From assembly GCF_003024235.1 (NCBI RefSeq), contig NZ_KZ679092.1:62001-126000 (forward strand): a DNA stretch of 64,000 nucleotides, written 5' to 3'. Positions within the stretch are counted from its first letter, which is position 1. Each line of letters opens with the position of its first letter. A program made the translations under genes and the position numbers. Below the pieces are notes generated by a model, which ran no database searches, had not been told where the DNA came from, and saw nothing but the letters and a program-made list of their open reading frames with translations. Below are positions 1 through 15,862 of the stretch, one piece after another. The DNA is from Arenimonas caeni. GTDB lineage: Bacteria; Pseudomonadota; Gammaproteobacteria; Xanthomonadales; Xanthomonadaceae.

Positions 1-2
1 CC

Positions 3-716
3 GAAATGGCCGTGCTCGACCACGCCATGCGCGAGCATCCCGGGCTGGCCCGGCACCTGTCGGTGCAGGGGTCGGCCACCAGCGCGCCGGCGCTTCGCTA
101 CATGCACGATCGCTTCGGCATCAGCCGCGCGGTGCTGCCGCGGGTGCTTTCGCTGCAGCAGGTCGAGCGCCTGTGCGAGCGCTCGCCGGTGCCGCTGGAG
201 GTGTTCGCCTTCGGCAGCCTGTGCATCATGGTCGAAGGCCGCTGCCAGCTCTCAAGCTATGTCACCGGCGCCTCGCCCAACCGCCACGGCGTCTGCTCGC
301 CGGCGCGCTTCGTGCGCTGGGAGGAACACGGCGACGGCCAGCGCGCCGTGCGCCTGAACGGCCTGCTGATGGATCGCTACGCACCGGGCGAGCCGGCCGC
401 CTACCCGACGGTCTGCAAGGGCCGCTTCGACGTGGGCGGCGAAACCTTCCACGCGCTCGAGGAGCCGACCAGCCTCAACACCCTCGAACTGCTGCCGCAG
501 CTGGCGGAGGCCGGCGTGGCGGCGCTGAAGATCGAGGGCCGCCAGCGCGGCGTGGCCTACGTGAGCTCGGTGACGCGTACCTGGCGCGAGGCCATCGACC
601 GCCACCGTGCCGACGCAGCCGGCTGGCAGGCCCGCCCCGAGTGGCAGAAGGCGCTTTCGGCCCACGCCGAAGGCCACCAGACCACGCTCGGCCCCTACCA
701 CCGCGCCTGGCACTGA
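3..716 (+). CDS. ubiU: UbiU, O2-independent ubiquinone hydroxylation protein (5' truncated)
   Basis: This U32-family protein works with UbiV and UbiT in oxygen-independent ubiquinone synthesis, where the UbiU-UbiV pair carries iron-sulphur clusters. The window starts inside the gene: the frame is open to the left edge and about 95 N-terminal residues are missing compared with the roughly 330-residue E. coli protein. The four cluster cysteines are visible in SLCIMVEGRC, GVC and PTVC, and the U32 signatures EVFAFGSLCIM, ALEEPTSLNTLELLP and KIEGRQR are intact. It ends 4 bases before ubiV and is cotranscribed with it. Its promoter lies outside the window. Identification rests on close similarity to the remembered E. 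coli sequence over the whole visible part. Confidence 0.95.
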   Translation, partial: EMAVLDHAMREHPGLARHLSVQGSATSAPALRYMHDRFGISRAVLPRVLSLQQVERLCERSPVPLEVFAFGSLCIMVEGRCQLSSYVTGASPNRHGVCSPARFVRWEEHGDGQRAVRLNGLLMDRYAPGEPAAYPTVCKGRFDVGGETFHALEEPTSLNTLELLPQLAEAGVAALKIEGRQRGVAYVSSVTRTWREAIDRHRADAAGWQARPEWQKALSAHAEGHQTTLGPYHRAWH

Positions 717-720
717 CCGC

Positions 721-1632
721 ATGAAACTCAGCCTCGGACCGCTGCAATACTTCTGGCCGCGCGAGCGCACGCTCGCCTTCTACCGCGAGGCGGCCGGCTG
801 GCCGGTCGACGTGGTCTACCTGGGCGAAACGGTGTGCAGCAAGCGCCGCGAACTGGGCACGCGCGACTGGATCGCGCTGGCCGGGGAGCTGGCCACGGCC
901 GGCAAGGAAGTGGTGCTTTCCAGCCTGGCGCTGGTGGAGGCCGAATCCGAGCTCAACGCGGTGCAGCGCATGCTCGAGCACGGTGGCTTCCTCGTCGAAG
1001 CCAACGACCTGACCGCGGTGCAGCTATGCCGCGAGGCGGGCGCCGGCTTCGTGGCCGGGCCAAGCCTGAACATCTACAACCACCGCGCGCTGGCGATGCT
1101 GGCCGAAGACGGGCTGCGGCGCTGGGTGCCCGGCGTCGAGCAGGGCCTGCGGCAGATCGACGAGCTGCTGGCGGCGCACGCGGCGGAAGGACTGCCGGCG
1201 CCCGAGGTGGAGGTGATCGCCTGGGGACGCCTGCCGCTGTCGTACTCGGCCCGCTGCTTCACGGCCCGCGCCTTCGACGTGCCCAAGGACGCCTGCGGCT
1301 TCCGCTGCATCGAACATCCGGACGGCCTGCCGCTGGCCACGCGCGAGGGCACGCCCTTCCTGCGCATCAACGGCATCCAGATCCAGGGTGAAGAAATCAC
1401 CGACCTTGGCCCGGAACTCCCGGCCCTGCGCGAACTCGGCGTCGGCCTGCTGCGGCTCTACCCGCAGCACGAAGGCATGCGCGAGATCGTCGAACACTTC
1501 GACCTCGCCCGCCACTCCACCCTTCCTCCGCCCCGCCTCGGCGCCGTCAACGGCTACTGGCACGAACACCCCGGCAAACCCGGCCTCCCCGACGCCCCCA
1601 CCCCACCCGCGCCTGCCCACCCCACGCCGTAG
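721..1632 (+). CDS. ubiV: UbiV, O2-independent ubiquinone hydroxylation protein
   Basis: UbiV is the partner of UbiU in anaerobic hydroxylation of the ubiquinone ring. The protein is 303 residues. Four [4Fe-4S] cysteines are at C39 (ETVC), C179 (ARC), C192 and C196 (ACGFRC), the same arrangement as in E. coli UbiV. The ATG start is 4 bases after the ubiU stop, with no intergenic space, so the two are translated from one message. The last residues are a proline-rich tail rather than a domain. The stop codon lies inside a 13-bp palindrome (1627-1656) shared with the convergent fabB end. The third partner, UbiT, is encoded about 4.3 kb further on the opposite strand. Confidence 0.95.
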   Translation: MKLSLGPLQYFWPRERTLAFYREAAGWPVDVVYLGETVCSKRRELGTRDWIALAGELATAGKEVVLSSLALVEAESELNAVQRMLEHGGFLVEANDLTAVQLCREAGAGFVAGPSLNIYNHRALAMLAEDGLRRWVPGVEQGLRQIDELLAAHAAEGLPAPEVEVIAWGRLPLSYSARCFTARAFDVPKDACGFRCIEHPDGLPLATREGTPFLRINGIQIQGEEITDLGPELPALRELGVGLLRLYPQHEGMREIVEHFDLARHSTLPPPRLGAVNGYWHEHPGKPGLPDAPTPPAPAHPTP

Positions 1633-1664: not shown

Positions 1665-2876
1665 TCAGGCGGGGGTGCCGAAGACGAGGCAGGCGTTGGT
1701 GCCGCCGAAGCCGAAGCTGTTGGACATCACCGTGCGAAGCGTGGCGTCGCGGCTCTCGCGCAGGATCGGGAAATCGGCCGCCTGAGGGTCGAGGTTGGCG
1801 ACGTGGGCCGAGCCGGCCATGAAACCGTCGCGCATCATCAGCAGGCTGTAGATCGCCTCGTGCACGCTGGCGGCGCCGAGCGAGTGGCCCGACAGTGCCT
1901 TGGTGGACGAGATCGGCGGCATCGCCTCGCCGAAGGCCTCGCGGACCGCACGCAGCTCGATGATGTCGCCCAGCGGCGTCGACGTGCCGTGGGTATTGAG
2001 GTAGTCGATGGGGCGGTCGAGGCCGGCCATCGCCATCTGCATGCAGCGCACCGCGCCTTCGCCCGAGGGCGCGACCATGTCGGCGCCGTCGGAGCTGATG
2101 CCGTAGCCGAGCAGCTCGGCGTGGATGCGGGCGCCGCGCGCCTTCGCGTGCTCGTAGTCCTCGAGCACCACCATGCCGCCGCCACCGGCGATGACGAACC
2201 CGTCGCGGTCGGCGTCGTAGGGGCGCGAGGCCGTGGCCGGCGTGTCGTTGTGCCTGGTCGACAGCGCGCCCATCGCATCGAACTGCAGGCTCAGCGACCA
2301 GTGCAGCTCCTCGCCGCCGCCCGCGAACATGATGTCCTGGCGGCCGGCGCGGATCTGGTCGGCTGCGGCGCCGATGCAGTGCGCCGAGGTCGCGCAGGCC
2401 GCGGCGATCGAATAGCTCGCGCCACGGATGCCGAAGGCCGTGGCCAGGTTGGCCGACACCGTCGAGCCCATCGTGCGCGGCACCATGTACGGGCCCACCT
2501 TGCGCACGCCGCGCTGGCGCAGCAGGTCGGCGGCCTCGACCTGCCACTGGGTCGAGCCGCCGCCGGAGCCGGCGAACAGGCCGGTGCGGTCGGAGCGCAC
2601 TTGTGCGTCCCCGAGGCCGGCGTCGGTGATGGCTTCCTGCATGGCCACGTGCGCATAGGCCGCGCCGTCACCCATGAAGCGCAGCGCCTTGCGGTCGATG
2701 CGCGCGGCCAGGTCGATCTCCGGCGCGCCGGAAACCTGGCTGCGCAGGCCGGCTTCGGCGGCGGCGGCGTCGAAGCGGATGCCGCTGTGCCCTTCGCGCA
2801 GCGCCACCGAGACGCCGTCCAGCGTGTTGCCCAGGCACGAGACGATGCCCATGCCCGTGATGACGACGCGACGCAT
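1665..2876 (-). CDS. fabB: Beta-ketoacyl-ACP synthase I (FabB)
   Basis: FabB condenses malonyl-ACP with acyl-ACP and is the elongation step needed for anaerobic unsaturated fatty acids. The protein is 403 residues (E. coli 406). The catalytic triad is visible: C161 in [10 protein letters not shown]296 in NTHGTSTP and H331 in SGHSLGA. The glycine-rich C-terminal signature [11 protein letters not shown] is present. The ATG was chosen because it gives the canonical N-terminus [10 protein letters not shown] and lies 2 bases after the fabA stop, so it is the second gene of a fabAB operon. A longer in-frame extension upstream only overlaps fabA and is not used. Confidence 0.97.
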
Positions 2877-2878
2877 GC

Positions 2879-3394
2879 CTACATTCCTTCGGTGGAGGAG
2901 AACAGGCCGACGCGCAGTTCCTCGGCCGTGTAGATCTCGCGGCCGTCGACCAGGGTGCGGCCGTCGGCGATCACCATTTTCAGGCGCCCGCGCACCACGC
3001 GCCGGATATCGATTTCGTAGGTGACGAGCTTGGCGCTCGGCAGCACCTGGCCGGTGAACTTCACCTGGCCCACGCCGAGCGCGCGGCCGCGGCCGGGCTC
3101 GCCAAGCCAGGGCAGGTAGAAACCGGCCAGCTGCCACATCGCGTCCAGGCCCAGGCAACCCGGCATCACTGGGTCGTCGGCGAAGTGGCAGGCGAAGAAC
3201 CAAAGGTCCGGCCGGATGTCGAGTTCGGCGCGGATGAATCCCTTGCCGTGCTTGCCGCCGCTCTCGCTGATCTCGGTGATGCGGTCGAACATCAGCATCG
3301 GGTCGGACGGAAGGCGCGCGCCGCCGGGGCCGAACATGGCGCCGCTGGCGCATTCGAGCAACTGCGCGCGGTCGAAGGACTGGGAGATATTCAT
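2879..3394 (-). CDS. fabA: 3-hydroxydecanoyl-ACP dehydratase/isomerase (FabA)
   Basis: FabA dehydrates 3-hydroxydecanoyl-ACP and isomerises the product to the cis-3 form, the branch point of oxygen-independent unsaturated fatty acid synthesis. It is 171 residues, and catalytic H70 (FACHFADDP) and D84 (LGLDAMWQ) fall at the same numbers as in E. coli FabA. The start MNISQSF was picked for this length; an upstream in-frame ATG would add about 20 unrelated residues. fabB follows 2 bases later. An FNR-like box (3449-3462) sits about 60 bp upstream and overlaps the nadB stop, so the operon may be induced at low oxygen, which fits the enzyme's role. Confidence 0.97.
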
Positions 3395-3448
3395 CGCTGC
3401 CGGAACATTGGGGAAAACCGAGTTTCGTTGGTCAATGTGGGGCATGGA

Positions 3449-3462
3449 ATGATCCGCATCAA
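3449..3462 (-). promoter_or_regulatory. FNR-like box upstream of fabAB
   Basis: Read on the minus strand this is TTGATGCGGATCAT, 9 of 10 matches to the FNR consensus TTGAT-N4-ATCAA. A hexamer GAAACT (3421-3426), which keeps the A2 and T6 of a -10 box, is 32 bp from the box centre. That is the spacing of a class II FNR promoter and predicts a start near 3414. Regulation is inferred. Confidence 0.55.
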
Positions 3463-4931
3463 GCGGTTTCGCCGTACGCCGGCGTGTCGATTCCGTGGCG
3501 TATGTTGCGGTTTTTCCCTTTGTCCACGCGATGATGCGCGCCCAGGGAGCCCCTGCGCGCGAGCGCCGCGGCGAGCATCGCCAGCAGCAGTCTTCCCTGT
3601 CTGGCGGCTGAAAGTGCGCGATCGGAGTCGATCGCCTGCAGCGCATGCGCCAGCGTCGCGCCGTCACGGACCGGCCCCAGAGCGCGCCCGGCCAGCCGCG
3701 CGATCGCAGCGCGCGCGGCGGCATCGGCGCCGGGCCCGGCATCCACCCAGTGCTCCGCCGGCGCCGTGCCCGCCGTCGCCTGGCGCAACCGTTCGCCCAG
3801 GCGCCTGCCGCAAACCACGCCCTCGAGCAGCGAGTTGCTGGCGAGCCGGTTCGCGCCATGCACGCCGGTGCAGGCCACCTCGCCCACCGCGTGCAGGCCG
3901 GGTACCGTGCTGGCGCCATCGGGGTCGACCGCGATGCCGCCCATGTGGAAGTGCATCGCCGGCGTCACCGGGATGGGTTCGCTGCGCGGATCGAAGCCGT
4001 GCCTTGCACACAGTGCGAGCACGGTGGGGAACTGGCGCCACGCCTCGGCATCGAGGCCGCGCGCGTCGAGCCAGGCCCGGCCACCCTCCTGCTGGTGCCG
4101 GCAGATGCGCCGCGCCACCACGTCGCGTGGCGCAAGGTCGCCGGGCAGGTGCCCGCCCGGCATGAGCAGGTCGCCATTGCCGTCGACCAGGCGCGCGCCG
4201 GCGCCGCGCAGCGCCTCGGTGACCAGGGGCAGCTTGCCGGCGCCCGGAACGTCCAGCGCCGTCGGATGCCACTGGATGAATTCCAGGTCGCGCAGGTCGG
4301 CGCCCGCGGCCAGCGCCAGCGACAGACCGCTGCCGTCGGCGCCGGGGGGATTGGTGGTGGCCGCGAAGAGCGCGCCGATGCCGCCGGTGGCCAGCACCAG
4401 GTCGGGCGTCGCGATTTCCCGCGACCGTTCCTGCGCATCGCGCAGGCGCACCCCGGCCACGCGCCCGCGCGCCAGGCCGATCGCCTCCAGCCGCCACCCC
4501 GGCAGCCAGCCCACGTGCGGCGCCGCCGCCGCGGCCTGCGCCAGGGTGGTGGTGATCGCACGGCCGGTGGCGTCGCCGCCGGCATGCACGATGCGCGCGC
4601 GACCGTGGCCGCCTTCGCGGCCCAGCTGCAGCCGGCCTTCGCCATCGCGGTCGAACGGCACGCCGAGCCCGGCCAGCCACTGCACGACGCCCGGCGCCGC
4701 GGCCACCAGCGCGTGCACCGCGGCCACGTCGTTGTGCCAGGCGCCTGCGGCCAGGGTGTCGGCGGCGTGCTGCGTCGGGTCGTCGCCCTCGCCCACCGCC
4801 GCCGCCAGCCCGCCCTGCGCCATGGCGCTGGCGGTGCCCACCGGGCAGGCGGAGCGGCAGACCAGCCAGACCGGACGCGGCGCCGCGGCCAGCGCCGTGC
4901 ACAGGCCGGCCACGCCCGCACCGACCACCAC
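3459..4931 (-). CDS. nadB: L-aspartate oxidase (NadB)
   Basis: NadB oxidises L-aspartate to iminoaspartate with FAD, passing electrons to O2 or fumarate; NadA then makes quinolinate for NAD. The protein is about 490 residues, slightly short of the 540 in E. coli because of a reduced C-terminal helical domain. The FAD motif [10 protein letters not shown] is at the N-terminus. Active-site stretches [19 protein letters not shown] and PAMHFHMGG are present, and [13 protein letters not shown] closes the FAD domain. No ATG is available. The GTG at 4931 gives a normal N-terminus, but a CTG overlapping the nadA stop (4952) is possible, so the start is uncertain. Third gene of the ubiT-nadA-nadB operon. 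Confidence 0.93.
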
Positions 4932-4948
4932 CAGCGGCGGGACCGCGC

Positions 4949-5953
4949 TCAGACCCGTTCGCCGCGACCGACGGCCAGCATGCGCTCGAGCGCGCGCCGC
5001 GCGCGCGCGGCCACCTCGTCGGGCACCGTCACCTCGGGCCCGAGGTCGCGCAGGCAGGCGTGGATGTTCTGCAGCGTGATGCGCTTCATGTGCGGACAGA
5101 GGTTGCAGGGCTTGATGAACTCGGTGGCCGGGAAGCGCAGGCGCAGGTTGTCGGCCATCGAGCACTCGGTGATCAGCGCCACACGCTCGGGCTGCTCGCG
5201 CTCGAGCCAGGCGCCCATGGCGCTGGTGGAACCCACGAAGTCGGCCTCGGCGAGCACCTCGGGCGGGCATTCGGGATGCGCGACCAAGCGCGCGTCGAAG
5301 CGCTCGCGCGCGTGCCGGGCCTCGGCCGCGGTGAAGGTCTCGTGCACCTCGCAGCGGCCGTCCCATAGCACCAGCTGCACGCTCGTCTGGCTGGCCACGT
5401 GGGCGCCCAGGTAGCGATCGGGCAGGAAGATCACCTTGTCCGCGCCCATGGCCTCGACCACCTGCACCGCGTTTGCCGAGGTGCAGCAGGCATCGGATTC
5501 GGCCTTCACCTCGGCGCTGGTGTTGACGTAGGTGACCACCGGCGCGCCGGGGTGGCGCGCGCGCAGCATGCGCACGTCGGCGGCGGTGATCGAGTCGGCC
5601 AGCGAGCAGCCCGCCAGCGGGTCGGGGATGAGCACCTTCACGTGGGGCGCGAGGATCTTCGCGCTCTCGGCCATGAAGTGCACGCCGGCCAGCACCACGA
5701 TCCCGGCGTCGCAGTCGGCGGCGGCCTGCGCCAGCGCCAGCGAGTCGCCGGTGACGTCGGCCACGCCATGGAAGATCTCCGGCGACTGGTAGCTGTGCGC
5801 CATCACCACCGCGCCGCGCTCGCGCTTGAGGGTGTTGATCGCATCGATCCAGGGCAGGTGCAGCGGCACCTCCAGGCAGGGCAGCAGCCGTTCGAGCTTT
5901 TCGCTCAGCCCGGCGTACTCGACTGCCAGTTCGTCACGCCAGCGTGGTTTCAT
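4949..5953 (-). CDS. nadA: Quinolinate synthase A (NadA)
   Basis: NadA is a [4Fe-4S] enzyme that condenses iminoaspartate with dihydroxyacetone phosphate to quinolinate. The protein is 334 residues. Cluster cysteines are visible at C116 (AGCSLAD), in DACCTSANA (C156/C157) and in the C-terminal KPCNLCPHMK. The substrate motifs MAHSYQSPEI and NTSAEVKAESD are intact. The ATG overlaps the stop of the chorismate mutase-UbiT gene by the sequence ATGA, which points to translational coupling, and nadB follows at once. The cluster is oxygen-sensitive, which agrees with this operon having an FNR-type promoter. Confidence 0.97.
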   Translation of the reverse strand: MKPRWRDELAVEYAGLSEKLERLLPCLEVPLHLPWIDAINTLKRERGAVVMAHSYQSPEIFHGVADVTGDSLALAQAAADCDAGIVVLAGVHFMAESAKILAPHVKVLIPDPLAGCSLADSITAADVRMLRARHPGAPVVTYVNTSAEVKAESDACCTSANAVQVVEAMGADKVIFLPDRYLGAHVASQTSVQLVLWDGRCEVHETFTAAEARHARERFDARLVAHPECPPEVLAEADFVGSTSAMGAWLEREQPERVALITECSMADNLRLRFPATEFIKPCNLCPHMKRITLQNIHACLRDLGPEVTVPDEVAARARRALERMLAVGRGERV

Positions 5954-6789
5954 CGACCGGCCCTCCAGGCCTCGCGGGCCGCGCGCGCGGCGCGTGCACC
6001 CCGGTTGAGCGCGATGCGCACCGCCAGCGGCACCTCTTCCCAGGGCAGGCGGTCGAGCAGGTTGCGCGCGGTCAGGCCCAGTTCGGTGTCGCCGGTGAGT
6101 TCGAGCCGGCGCTGGAAGAACAGCGTGTCGGCGTCCTCGAGCCGGCTGGCGAGCAGCAGCAGGTCGGTGGCCGAGCCGCGCACGCTGGCTTCGGCCGGGC
6201 CGTCGACGCTGCGCAGTCGGCCATCTTCCAGGCCCAGCACCCAGGCCAGGCCCAGGTCCGGCACCTCGATGCCGATGCGACGCCCCTGCAGGAAGCCTAG
6301 CTCGCCGGCGCGCAGCGGCTTGTCGAGCAGTTGCCCGACCGCACGTTCCAGCAGCTGGCGCTGCCAGGCCTGCGGCACCCGCCGCAGCACCGGCGCCCAG
6401 CGCCGGGGCGGCGGCAGCCAGCGAAGGTAGGGGTGGGTGGGTGCACCGACCATGGCCTGGTCTCCTGGATTCGGGTTCGGGAAGGGCGCGTCGGGAACCG
6501 GGAGGCCGTCGGCGGCCAGGCCCTGCAGGTGGCGGCCGTCGGCGATCAGCAGCGCCAGCTGGCCGCGCGCCAGGCCCGGCGGCAGGCCGAGCCGGCGCGC
6601 CAGCCCGTCGCCGCGCGCGAGCACGGCGTGCTCACGCGCCGGATCGCAGGCCGGCAGCCCGCCGCGCCGCTTGCTCGCGGCCAGCCCCGCCACCAGCCGG
6701 CGACGGCCGGCGAGCAGCAGCAGCATGGCGTCGTCGAGTCCATCGATGCCGCGGCGAAGCAGCGACACCGCGAACGGAACCTGGTTCAT
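5950..6789 (-). CDS. ubiT: Chorismate mutase (AroQ)-UbiT (SCP2) fusion
   Basis: The 279-residue protein has two parts. Residues 8-95 are an AroQ chorismate mutase: aligned to the E. coli P-protein, every active-site residue is kept with an offset of one, namely R12, R29, K40, D49, R52, E53 and Q89. Residues 118-279 match UbiT (YhbT), the SCP2-fold accessory factor of anaerobic ubiquinone synthesis, including DTLFFQRRL, LTGDTELGL and the RNLLD stretch. A proline-rich linker (about 93-117) joins them. The ATG at 6789 puts R12 in register; earlier in-frame ATGs add nothing conserved. The stop overlaps nadA by ATGA. An FNR-like box precedes it. The SCP2 part is confidently UbiT. Mutase activity is inferred from residue conservation. 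Confidence 0.9.
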   Translation of the reverse strand: MNQVPFAVSLLRRGIDGLDDAMLLLLAGRRRLVAGLAASKRRGGLPACDPAREHAVLARGDGLARRLGLPPGLARGQLALLIADGRHLQGLAADGLPVPDAPFPNPNPGDQAMVGAPTHPYLRWLPPPRRWAPVLRRVPQAWQRQLLERAVGQLLDKPLRAGELGFLQGRRIGIEVPDLGLAWVLGLEDGRLRSVDGPAEASVRGSATDLLLLASRLEDADTLFFQRRLELTGDTELGLTARNLLDRLPWEEVPLAVRIALNRGARAARAAREAWRAGR

Positions 6790-6854: not shown

Positions 6855-6868
6855 CTGACCTCGGTCAA
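6855..6868 (-). promoter_or_regulatory. FNR-like box upstream of ubiT-nadA-nadB
   Basis: On the minus strand this reads TTGACCGAGGTCAG, a TTGAC-N4-GTCA palindrome. A hexamer TGCAAT (6827-6832, 4 of 6 matches to TATAAT) is exactly 32 bp from the centre, the class II FNR geometry, predicting a start near 6820 and a leader of about 30 nt. Confidence 0.6.
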
Positions 6869-9134: not shown

Positions 9135-9148
9135 TTGACGGCTGTCAA
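9135..9148. promoter_or_regulatory. Perfect TTGAC-N4-GTCAA palindrome in the receptor/nirS intergenic region
   Basis: TTGACGGCTGTCAA is a fully symmetric FNR/DNR-type box in the 204-bp divergent space. A TGCAAT hexamer (9168-9173) lies 29 bp to the right and a TATCGT (minus strand, 9111-9116) 28 bp to the left. Neither has the 32-bp class II spacing, so which gene it serves is unclear. Confidence 0.5.
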
Positions 9149-9184: not shown

Positions 9185-11387
<2,203 letters not shown>

Positions 11388-11465: not shown

Positions 11466-12656
11466 TTACGGCCAGTTGCGCTCGATCTGCAGCCAGAGCT
11501 TGCGGGTGTCGTGGGCGAAGCCGTCGCTGCGGTAGTCGGCGAGCTTGACGAGGCCGGCGAAACCGGCGGGCAGCGGGAAGGACAGCGACGCGTTGAGTTC
11601 GCGGCCGTAGTCGGCGTCGCCGCGGTCGGCGACATAGTCGTGCCAGGCCACGGTCCAGCCGAGCTTGCCGTCCAGCCGGCCGCTGCCGAACTTGCCCGAG
11701 ACCGAGGCGTAGCGATCGTCGAGGCCGTTGGCCGGCGTCACCAGGAACTTGTCGGCCCAGCCGTTGAAGGCGTGCAGGGTCGCCAGCGGCGTCTGGAAGG
11801 CGGTGCTGCCGTTGCCGCCCAGCCGCTCCCAGCCCACCTTCCAGGTCAGCCCCCTGGCGGACAGCGAGGGTTCGAACAACACGTAGTCGGCGCTCACCTG
11901 CAGCGGGTTGTCGGCATGGTCGCGCTGCTTGGCGTATTCGAGCGTCCAGCCCAGCTTCACCGCGTCGAACGCGCGCTGGCCGGTGTAGCGCAGGCCCAGG
12001 GTGCGGGTGGAGGCCGTGGCCACGTCCTGGTCGTCGAGCCAATACCCGTAGGCCGCCAGGGTGCCGGCCGCGCCGGTCCAGGACAGGTTGGCGAGGTGGG
12101 CGTTGAGGTCGCGCTCGCGCGCCAGCGGGTCGATCGCCTCGTCGGAGAAGACGCGGTGTACGCGGTCGAGCCAGGAATAGCGCAGCACCAGGCCTTCGCG
12201 CGGCGAGAAGTCCGCCGAGAAGGCGTCGTAGGTCTGCTCGTTCTGGCGCCAGCCGACGTTGCCGACGAAGCGCTGGTTGTCGAGCAGCAGCCGCTGGCGG
12301 CCGAGCGTCGCGCCACCGCGCTCGCCGCGCCAGCGCAGCCAGGCCTGGTTGAGTTCGAACGACTCAGGATCGGCCACCACCGGGTAGGTGGTGCGGCCGT
12401 TGGCCGTGGAGTTGTAGCTGCCGTCGGCGGCGGCCACCGCCTCGAGCTCCGCGCCGGCGCTGAAGCCGTTGACGAAGGCATGGCTGTAGCCGAGGCGCAG
12501 GCGCAGGGTGTCGGCCGAAGCGTCGCGCGCGAAGGCATCGTCGGAGACCGCTTCGTGGCGGTAGCGCAGGTTCGCGCTCCAGCCATCGTCGGCCTGTGCG
12601 GCGACGGGCTGGAGCGCCAGTGCCAGTGCGATGGCAAGGCAGTTCCTGGAGGTCAT
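11466..12656 (-). CDS. Outer-membrane porin, alginate-export (AlgE-like) family
   Basis: The protein is 396 residues, with a signal peptide cleaved near AQA-DD (about residue 22) and then an alternating amphipathic pattern throughout, as in a beta-barrel. The segments [36 protein letters not shown] and [11 protein letters not shown] are characteristic of alginate_exp-type porins in gammaproteobacteria. The ATG at 12656 was chosen because it starts the signal peptide. The gene sits between nirS and nirK, reads towards nirS, and has an FNR-like box upstream. A role in anion passage for nitrite reduction is plausible from context only. The substrate cannot be told from sequence. Confidence 0.8.
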
Positions 12657-12722
12657 GGTTCGGTTCCAAGCAAGGCCCGGATCGGGTCGCGCCAAGCGTG
12701 CTCCGGTGGCGCCCGGTTTCCC

Positions 12723-12736
12723 CTGAGCCACGTCAA
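12723..12736 (-). promoter_or_regulatory. Possible FNR-like box upstream of the porin gene
   Basis: On the minus strand the sequence is TTGACGTGGCTCAG, a good left half-site and a weaker right one. The hexamer 32 bp from the centre is CACGCT, keeping only A2 and T6 of a -10 box. Weaker than the other boxes here. Confidence 0.35.
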
Positions 12737-12805
12737 GATAGCTGCATTCTTCCAAGGGGTTCACATCGGCGGCCGGGGGCGTCAGACTGTCCAGGCCCGC
12801 ACCGC

Positions 12806-12819
12806 TTGATGTGCATCAG
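12806..12819 (+). promoter_or_regulatory. FNR-like box upstream of nirK
   Basis: TTGATGTGCATCAG matches TTGAT-N4-ATCAA at 9 of 10 positions. AAGCTT begins 23 bp downstream (12843-12848), the same distance as in the nirS promoter, giving GAAGCT at the -10 position and a predicted start near 12854. Confidence 0.6.
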
Positions 12820-12895
12820 GGACGATTGCGCGCCGCCGCACGAAGCTTTCGCCAAGGTTGGGAACCCAACCTCAAGCCCCGGAGACCTGATCACA

Positions 12896-14425
12896 ATGAA
12901 ACGCCCCCTGCTCCTCGCCTGCATCGCCGCAGCCCTCGCCCTCGCCGGCTGCCGCGACAACCCCAACGCCAACCTCGACGCCCACGAAGCCGTGGCGGCC
13001 AAGCGCGCCGCCGGCGCCGCCGACACCGGCGGCTCGCGCAAGGGCGACTTCGGCCCGCCGCAGGGCGAGATGATCGAGGCCGTGCTCACCGCACCGCCGC
13101 ACGTCCCGCCGCCGACCAACCGCGACTACCCGGCCAAGGTCAAGGTCCAGCTGGAGGTGCGCGAGGTCGACCTGGAGATCGCCGACGGCGTCACCTACAC
13201 CTTCTGGACCTTCGGCGGCACCGTGCCGGGCAGCTTCATCCGCGTGCGCCAGGGCGACACGGTGGAGTTCCACCTGCACAACCACCCCGACTCGAAGATG
13301 CCGCACAACATCGACCTGCACGGCGTCACCGGCCCCGGTGGCGGCGCGAGCTCGACGTTCACGGCCCCGGGCCACGGCTCGCAGTTCACCTTCAAGGCGC
13401 TCAACGCCGGCCTGTACGTGTACCACTGCGCCACCGCGCCGGTGGGCATGCACATCGCCAACGGCATGTACGGCCTGATCCTGGTCGAGCCGCCCGAGGG
13501 CATGCCGCCGGTGGACAAGGAGTTCTACGTCATGCAGGGCGACTTCTACACCACCACCAAGTACCGCGAGAAGGGCCACGCACCGTTCGACATGCAGCGG
13601 GCGATCGACGAGAACGCCACCTACGTGCTGTTCAATGGCTCGGAGACCGCGCTCACGGGCGAAGGCGCGCTCAAGGCCAGCGTCGGCGAGAACGTGCGCC
13701 TGTACGTGGGCAACGGCGGCCCGAACCTGGTGTCGAGCTTCCACGTCATCGGCGAGATCTTCGACAAGGTCTGGTACGAGGGCGGCACCCGCTACCAGGA
13801 GAACGTGCAGACCACGCTGATCCCGGCCGGCGGCGCCATGATCGCCGACTTCCACCTGGAAGTGCCGGGCAGCTACGTGCTGGTCGACCACTCGATCTTC
13901 CGCGCCTTCAACAAGGGCGCGCTGGGCATCCTCCAGGTCGATGGCCCCGAGGACAAGTCGATCTACTCGGGCAAGGAAGTCGACCACGTCTACCTGGGCG
14001 ACAAGGCCGCCAGCATGCAGCCGGTGGCCGCCGCCGCCGCCGCCGAGAAGGCCGGCACGCTCACCCTCGAGGAGCAGGTCGCGGCCGGCAAGGCGCTGTT
14101 CGCCGGCACCTGCTCGACCTGCCATGGCGTCGAAGGCGCCGGCATGCCGGGCGTGTTCCCGCCGCTGGCGGGCTCCGACTGGCTCGACCGCCCGCACGAC
14201 GAGCTCGCCGCCATCGTGCTCAACGGCCTGTCCGGCCCGATCAAGGTCAATGGCCAGGACTACAACTCGGTGATGCCGCCGATGAGCCAGCTCACCGATG
14301 ACGAGGTCGCCAACATCCTCACGTACACGCTCAACAGCTGGGGCAACCCGGGTGGCCGCGTGAGCACCGAGGACGTGGCCCGCGTCCGCGCCACCACCGA
14401 GCGCGGCGAAGGCGCGGCGCACTGA
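12896..14425 (+). CDS. nirK: Copper nitrite reductase (NirK), AniA-type lipoprotein with a C-terminal cytochrome c domain
   Basis: Reduces nitrite to NO. The protein is 509 residues. The N-terminus has a lipobox LAGC (C19), so it is probably anchored in a membrane as Neisseria AniA is. Two cupredoxin domains carry type 1 copper ligands H137, C178, H186 and M191 and type 2 ligands H142, H177 and H283, with D140 as the catalytic Asp (PHNIDLH). The short CATAPVGMH loop marks class II NirK. After a linker rich in Ala a cytochrome c domain (about 390-500) has C406-S-T-C409-H410 and resembles the extra domain of NirS, including NGLSG and [15 protein letters not shown] ribosome site precedes the ATG. 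nirV and a SCO gene follow in one operon. Confidence 0.97.
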
Positions 14426-15820: not shown

Positions 15821-15862
15821 TTGACGCGGGTCAACCCGGAGCCACTCCGGGATGTACATAAT
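15821..15862 (+). promoter_or_regulatory. Class II FNR promoter of ccoNOQP
   Basis: TTGACGCGGGTCAA (15821-15834) is a perfect TTGAC-N4-GTCAA box. CATAAT (15857-15862, 5 of 6 matches to -10) is centred exactly 32 bp from the box centre, which puts the box at -41.5 of a start near 15869. This is the clearest FNR-type promoter in the window. Confidence 0.75.

Follow-up and report, generated by a model that had tools for sequence, protein, structure and literature searches.

The SCP2 protein UbiT of Escherichia coli, which belongs to the UbiTUV pathway, comprises 174 amino acids with the SCP2 domain at residues 45-133 (PMC6747719). UbiU and UbiV use an oxygen donor other than O2, for which prephenate has been raised as a possibility (Arias-Cartin et al., PMC10470549). 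Prephenate is reported as oxygen donor in anaerobic ubiquinone synthesis in a review that cites a PNAS paper of 2024; according to that review, the U32 proteins and the chemistry still lack direct evidence (PMC11574389). The U32 protein TrhP requires prephenate, and a pheA allele having only the mutase activity restored its product. TrhP and RlhA, both prephenate-dependent U32 proteins, have RNA as their substrate, and the accessible sections of the source mention no mutase fusion (PMC6599085). Zymomonas mobilis carries a ubiT-ubiU fusion (PMC6747719). FNR boxes have been predicted before 1001 of 1566 ubiT genes and 1180 of 1566 ubiU genes of Pseudomonadota (PMC11707229).

A gene of Arenimonas caeni, CM-ubiT, codes for an AroQ-type chorismate mutase joined to UbiT. 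The product resembles E. coli UbiT in an SCP2 domain scoring over the UbiT cut-off, with ubiU and ubiV nearby in its own genome, but adds an N-terminal chorismate mutase. With the AroQ mutases, including the E. coli P-protein PheA, it shares the three-helix fold and the seven active-site residues, whereas a lipid-binding quinone factor takes the place of an amino-acid enzyme or DAHP synthase as fusion partner. The Zymomonas fusion is likewise a UbiT fusion of the same pathway. It joins two known pathway members, while CM-UbiT would add an enzyme making the donor. TrhP and RlhA resemble UbiU and UbiV as U32 proteins; UbiU and UbiV are the only U32 proteins of the A. caeni genome. As in the FNR-controlled ubiTUV loci of Pseudomonadota, a predicted FNR-type box stands before both ubiT and ubiU. 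The fusions differ in that in 54 of 80 loci the ubiT box is embedded in the coding sequence of the joined gene. No mention of a chorismate mutase-UbiT fusion was found in the literature searched; the 2024 PNAS donor paper stands outside that search and may mention it. The words 'fusion', 'fused' and 'prephenate' are absent from the main text of PMC11707229, and the available portions of PMC10470549 and PMC6747719 describe no mutase fusion.

The joined gene and its neighbours

The window is the whole stretch of A. caeni DNA that was analysed, with a length of 64,000 nucleotides. The following features were assigned (the box before ubiU is given in the coordinates of locus L094):

1..716, plus strand: ubiU (U32), start lying before the window
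721..1632, plus strand: ubiV (U32), 349.1 bits against a cut-off of 275
1665..2876, minus strand: fabB (beta-ketoacyl-ACP synthase I)
2879..3919, minus strand: open reading frame with fabA, true start inside the frame
3459..5366, minus strand: open reading frame with nadB (L-aspartate oxidase), true start inside the frame, best model below its cut-off
4949..5953, minus strand: nadA, 4-base overlap (ATGA) with the stop of CM-ubiT
5950..6789, minus strand: CM-UbiT fusion gene, 279 amino acids, over the cut-offs for Pfam CM_2 and NCBIfam UbiT
5953..6438, minus strand: UbiT (SCP2 lipid-binding) domain, residues 118-279
6439..6504, minus strand: linker, residues 96-117, low confidence in the structure model
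6505..6789, minus strand: AroQ-type chorismate mutase domain, residues 1-95, seven active-site residues present
6855..6868, no strand assigned: FNR/DNR-type box CTGACCTCGGTCAA upstream of CM-ubiT, one mismatch, 65 nt gap to the ATG at 6789
9135..9148, no strand assigned: exact TTGACNNNNGTCAA box between a TonB-receptor gene and the cytochrome cd1 gene
15821..15834, no strand assigned: exact TTGACNNNNGTCAA box before ccoN
L094 3649-3662: box CTGACCCAGGTCAA, one mismatch, 53 nt before the listed GTG start of ubiU

A preliminary description of the window had proposed a chorismate mutase fused to UbiT with all seven active-site residues kept, and both points were borne out. The protein scored 44.6 bits with Pfam CM_2 (cut-off 27) and 128.8 bits with the NCBIfam UbiT equivalog (cut-off 46.9), and R12, R29, K40, D49, R52, E53 and Q89 are all present in the window copy. 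None of the narrower NCBIfam mutase equivalogs reached its cut-off, the top score being 38.6 bits against 120 for PRK09239; the mutase half is therefore assigned to no named mutase subfamily. Comparison of the predicted monomer structure by VIA-align revealed the three-helix AroQ fold in the mutase half and the SCP2 fold in the UbiT half.

The tie to the anaerobic quinone pathway, likewise proposed at the outset, was judged correct. CM-ubiT is linked to ubiU/ubiV in 48 of the 51 titled Xanthomonadales loci longer than 20 kb. Within the window, CM-ubiT and ubiUV are accompanied by fabA, fabB, nadA and nadB (1665-5953), apparently a cluster of oxygen-independent biosyntheses. The same 51 loci contain nadA in 32, nadB in 33, fabA in 29 and fabB in 29 cases. 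The corresponding counts in 80 loci of other class members, which are shorter (up to 12.5 kb) and come from among the matches listed, are 1, 0, 4 and 3. At 9282-11387 and 12596-14425, the window holds a cytochrome cd1-type protein with cytochrome c domains near a copper nitrite reductase, followed by cbb3 oxidase genes.

Spread of the fusion and conservation of the mutase half

The query protein was matched in 71 of 297 genomes of the family. UbiT is present in 64 of them, and both domains lie in a single open frame in 59 of these 64. The remaining 12 of the 71 comprise two genomes with the gene split across contigs (G151 and G168), one with a run of N (G282), one with three frames (G292), one with UbiT only (G104) and seven with the mutase only. 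The UbiT without a mutase domain (G104, L325 1464-2042) belongs to a genome with a match for prephenate dehydratase (PDT). Among 357 relatives detected in genome contigs, 80 titled Xanthomonadales loci were kept, and mutase and UbiT share one frame in 79. The search for AroQ-SCP2 fusions across the order, suggested in the preliminary description, thus found them in many genera, including Arenimonas, Lysobacter, Thermomonas, Luteimonas, Pseudoxanthomonas, Stenotrophomonas, Xanthomonas, Dyella, Frateuria, Rhodanobacter and Dokdonella. The single exception, L190 from Arenimonas daejeonensis, shows a frame change near the end of the mutase domain (about 10196-10260); its sequence was left as is. 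Among 369 genomes of the class, the matches listed from outside the family include no protein spanning both domains. The same description had named a stop between the domains in relatives as the sign of two genes joined by a sequencing error; such a join is ruled out by the 59 family genomes and 79 titled loci with one frame.

In 12 diverse fusions, the window copy and 11 others with 49-74% identity to it, the invariant columns of the mutase half (start Met excluded) are R12, I15, D16, D19, R29, K40, D49, R52, E53, G68, I82 and Q89, i.e., the seven active-site residues and five others. Across 109 distinct fusions (64 clusters at 80% identity), R12, R29, K40, R52 and E53 are invariant, Q89 is found in 108 and D49 in 104. 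The equivalents of E. coli Arg11, Arg28, Lys39, Asp48, Arg51, Glu52 and Gln88 are each kept in 104-109 of the 109, and the commonest residue averages 62% across the mutase-domain columns. Ser84 is not conserved. Judged from the sequences, selection maintains the active site of the mutase half, which is very probably active as a chorismate mutase. All seven residues are intact in 56 of the 59 family fusion genomes. Three genomes of one genus (G073, G126 and G100) have lost Q89, one of them K40 as well, with the fusion retained; all three have a PDT match. They likely represent a natural decay series of the mutase half. These losses in PDT-bearing genomes indicate that the mutase can decay where PheA persists.

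Outside the family, 80 UbiT loci from at least 87 rows were compared; G553 (internal stop), G506, G615, G378, G625, G328 and G297 were left out. Among these matches listed, 62 of 80 loci contain a U32 gene. Five (G581, G335, G443, G475 and G528), all of which contain U32 genes, carry a mutase as a gene of its own at a distance of 0.16-0.33 kb from the ubiT match. About 0.1 or fewer such neighbours would be expected by chance in 80 loci, a rough estimate that assumes two mutase genes per 2.9 Mb. Four of the five mutases are oriented divergently to ubiT, and an FNR-type box lies in the intervening DNA (three exact, one with one mismatch; raw counts without shuffle comparison). The equivalents of Arg11, Arg28, Lys39, Arg51 and Glu52 are kept in all five, that of Asp48 in one and that of Gln88 in none, which makes the activity of the separate mutases uncertain. 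The other 75 of the 80 matches listed have no mutase nearby, so a local mutase is not generally required. Of 30 training mutases, two were dropped as too short. A weak mutase tree of 40 rows and 98 columns placed the fused domains in a group of their own with support 99/93. The five separate mutases fell outside, ADJ_G528 at a poorly supported fork. Descent of the fused domain from a separate mutase beside ubiT was considered and is unsupported by this weak tree. The mutase-ubiT link may have arisen more than once.

Prephenate genes in fusion genomes

CM-UbiT was the single match to PF01817 at E<=1 in the A. caeni genome, and chorismate synthase was found there. Prephenate dehydratase (PF00800) gave no match in this genome and was matched in 14 of 14 control genomes. 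No match to CmoA was obtained. TyrA was not detected by PF02153 (one sub-cut-off match) or by NF006457. The sub-cut-off candidate, G000:C12:65560, was rejected: its best score, again below the cut-off, is that of a different oxidoreductase, related to 2-hydroxy-3-oxopropionate reductase. This search for TyrA has little weight, since certain PDT-positive Arenimonas likewise give no match, G042 with both models and G103 and G147 with NF006457; either TyrA is truly absent in these Arenimonas or the models fail to detect it. The prephenate users covered were PDT, TyrA, CmoA and the U32 proteins; a periplasmic cyclohexadienyl dehydratase (PheC-type) would be a further one. A PDT gene could be hidden in an assembly gap of the 41-contig genome; the one-contig genome G083 also has none. 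On the present gene content, CM-UbiT looks like the sole prephenate source in A. caeni.

The preliminary description had asked for other AroQ or PheA proteins in fusion genomes. None was detected in the A. caeni genome, and a PDT match is present in 51 of the 59 family fusion genomes. The suggestion that the mutase may be the main one of the cell under low oxygen holds insofar as no other was detected in the genome; a general role does not follow, with neither PDT nor TyrA detected. The description had further framed the fusion as a competition for chorismate between prephenate and 4-hydroxybenzoate, and missed the reported role of prephenate as hydroxyl donor.

Loss of PDT was followed across the family. 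A PF00800 match at E<=0.1 is lacking in 31 of 297 genomes, 11 of which were identified by absence from the matched rows; G236, with one sub-cut-off match, is not among them. Eight of the 31 carry CM-UbiT, G083 with its single contig included, and the seven residues are intact in all eight. The other 23 have no UbiT match. Seventeen of these lack any PF01817 match at E<=0.1, four show sub-cut-off matches only (E 0.008-0.09) and two have a mutase that scores over the cut-off. G082 and G184, PDT-less and without the fusion, have their mutase in a PDH-type frame. In this sample, therefore, loss of PheA goes with loss of the mutase unless the latter resides in CM-UbiT or a PDH-type protein. U32 proteins were found in 11 of 11 fusion genomes tested (one match in G076, two in the others) and were absent from all 24 genomes that lack PDT or CM and carry no fusion. 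These two groups form the U32 set; the comparison genomes for the chorismate synthase, U32, TyrA and CmoA searches were hand-picked. Extra chorismate mutase frames occur within about 6 kb of CM-ubiT in L096 (1052-2116, G210), L146, L148, L178 and L204. The extra frame of G210 encodes a prephenate-dehydrogenase-like protein with a C-terminal mutase.

Regulation and proposed role

At <=1 mismatch, four FNR/DNR-type boxes are present in the window versus 0.57 expected, and four or more occurred in one of 100 shuffles. A box (<=1 mismatch) lies within 250 nt upstream of the mutase in 28 of 79 titled loci, whereas shuffled sequences gave 0.8 and random windows 24 of 395. The core TGAYNNNNRTCA was detected within the linker-coding DNA in 54 of 80 loci (79 titled loci and the window copy) versus 0 of 483 control windows of the same open reading frames. 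For the full box at <=1 mismatch, the counts are 52 of 80 and 2 of 483. The 54 boxed loci, between L134 and L207, span 38 of 59 clusters at 80% identity. Considering both positions, 43 of the 80 loci have the inner box only, 18 the upstream box only (the window copy included), 11 both and 8 neither.

The boxed linkers encode the motif DxDQG. The codon of its second Asp is GAT in 35 of 35 cases versus 571 of 1424 elsewhere, and a T precedes the codon of the first Asp in all 49 cases; what shows in the protein as DxDQG is a DNA motif. After the box, A at +24 and T at +28 are invariant (54 of 54), and an in-frame ATG follows at +36 or +39 in 52 of 54. The invariant A and T fit key bases of a -10 element, and box and -10 element are arranged as in an FNR class II promoter. 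The two elements form a probable inner promoter for UbiT alone, whose message would be almost leaderless. Reading frame and promoter are both kept, which suggests that most of these loci yield two products and the window copy mainly the fusion. In the window copy, residue 113 is encoded by the linker ATG, with AGGAG 8 nt ahead of it (6451-6466); UbiT alone might also be translated there. Shine-Dalgarno sequences are not enriched at linker ATGs (18 of 73 loci versus 82 of 273 other internal ATGs), and a ribosome site before them is unsupported as a general feature.

CM-UbiT is proposed, with a probability of about 0.78, to serve the O2-independent ubiquinone pathway through both its domains, the mutase supplying prephenate to UbiUV and the fusion so coupling donor supply to the substrate carrier. 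The SCP2 half, by its membership in UbiT, would hold the greasy quinone intermediate for UbiU-UbiV. The mutase half, by its fold and residues, would convert chorismate to prephenate. UbiU-UbiV would take prephenate as oxygen donor for ring hydroxylation, in keeping with the reported donor role (PMC11574389). Prephenate would apparently be made only for ubiquinone in A. caeni, in the genome of which no other mutase and no other user among those covered was detected. CM-ubiT stands behind an FNR/DNR-type box like that before ubiU, and a regulator of this type would presumably act on it. Prephenate may be handed over physically to UbiUV. The need of U32 proteins for prephenate makes local donor supply the best reading of a mutase on UbiT, and prephenate supply explains both the undetected PDT and TyrA and the reported donor role. 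The five loci outside the family with a mutase gene next to ubiT lend this reading support. In a stricter form, CM-UbiT would be a dedicated oxygen-donor unit: the mutase kept only for UbiUV, prephenate handed over within a UbiT-UbiUV complex, the fusion serving as sole mutase after loss of PDT and, with it, of the route from prephenate to amino acids, and the linker FNR promoter adding a low-oxygen boost of UbiT over a fixed supply of fusion in most loci. The odds for this form are about even.

A general chorismate mutase feeding phenylalanine or tyrosine synthesis, fused to UbiT for low-oxygen co-expression, would agree with CM-UbiT as the only PF01817 match in a genome that contains chorismate synthase. 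However, among the enzymes covered, PF00800 has no match there and TyrA none by two models. With neither detectable, supply of the two amino acids by the PDT and TyrA routes is unlikely, and the activity would be redundant in most family fusion genomes, which have a PDT match; this explanation appears improbable. Slightly less credible still is a barely catalytic mutase half that binds chorismate and senses or gates the flux to prephenate versus 4-hydroxybenzoate. The logic of a branch point and the lack of conservation at Ser84 would suit it. Yet R12, R29, K40, R52 and E53 are invariant in 109 of 109 fusions against the 62% column average, and a protein that only senses would scarcely depend on every one of them.

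Two genes could also share one frame, a mutase followed by ubiT with its own promoter, the joined protein being unimportant. The FNR-like box and -10-like element in the linker DNA of 54 loci, the in-frame ATG 36 or 39 nt on in 52 and the AGGAG of the window copy point in this direction. Yet the frame is free of stops in 79 of 80 loci although the box contains an out-of-frame TGA. In addition, the 18 loci with the upstream box only, the window copy among them, show no separate ubiT box, and Shine-Dalgarno enrichment is lacking at the linker ATGs. Independence of the two halves is accordingly rated as doubtful as the sensing function.

With the supply of prephenate to UbiUV as the preferred role, a prephenate-making enzyme fused to a UbiUV partner, and intact where the amino-acid use appears lost, provides evolutionary support for the donor role of prephenate. 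The linker promoter would exemplify in-frame coding DNA that holds a complete regulatory element. CM-UbiT of A. caeni represents a compact system, with one mutase and one detected prephenate user.
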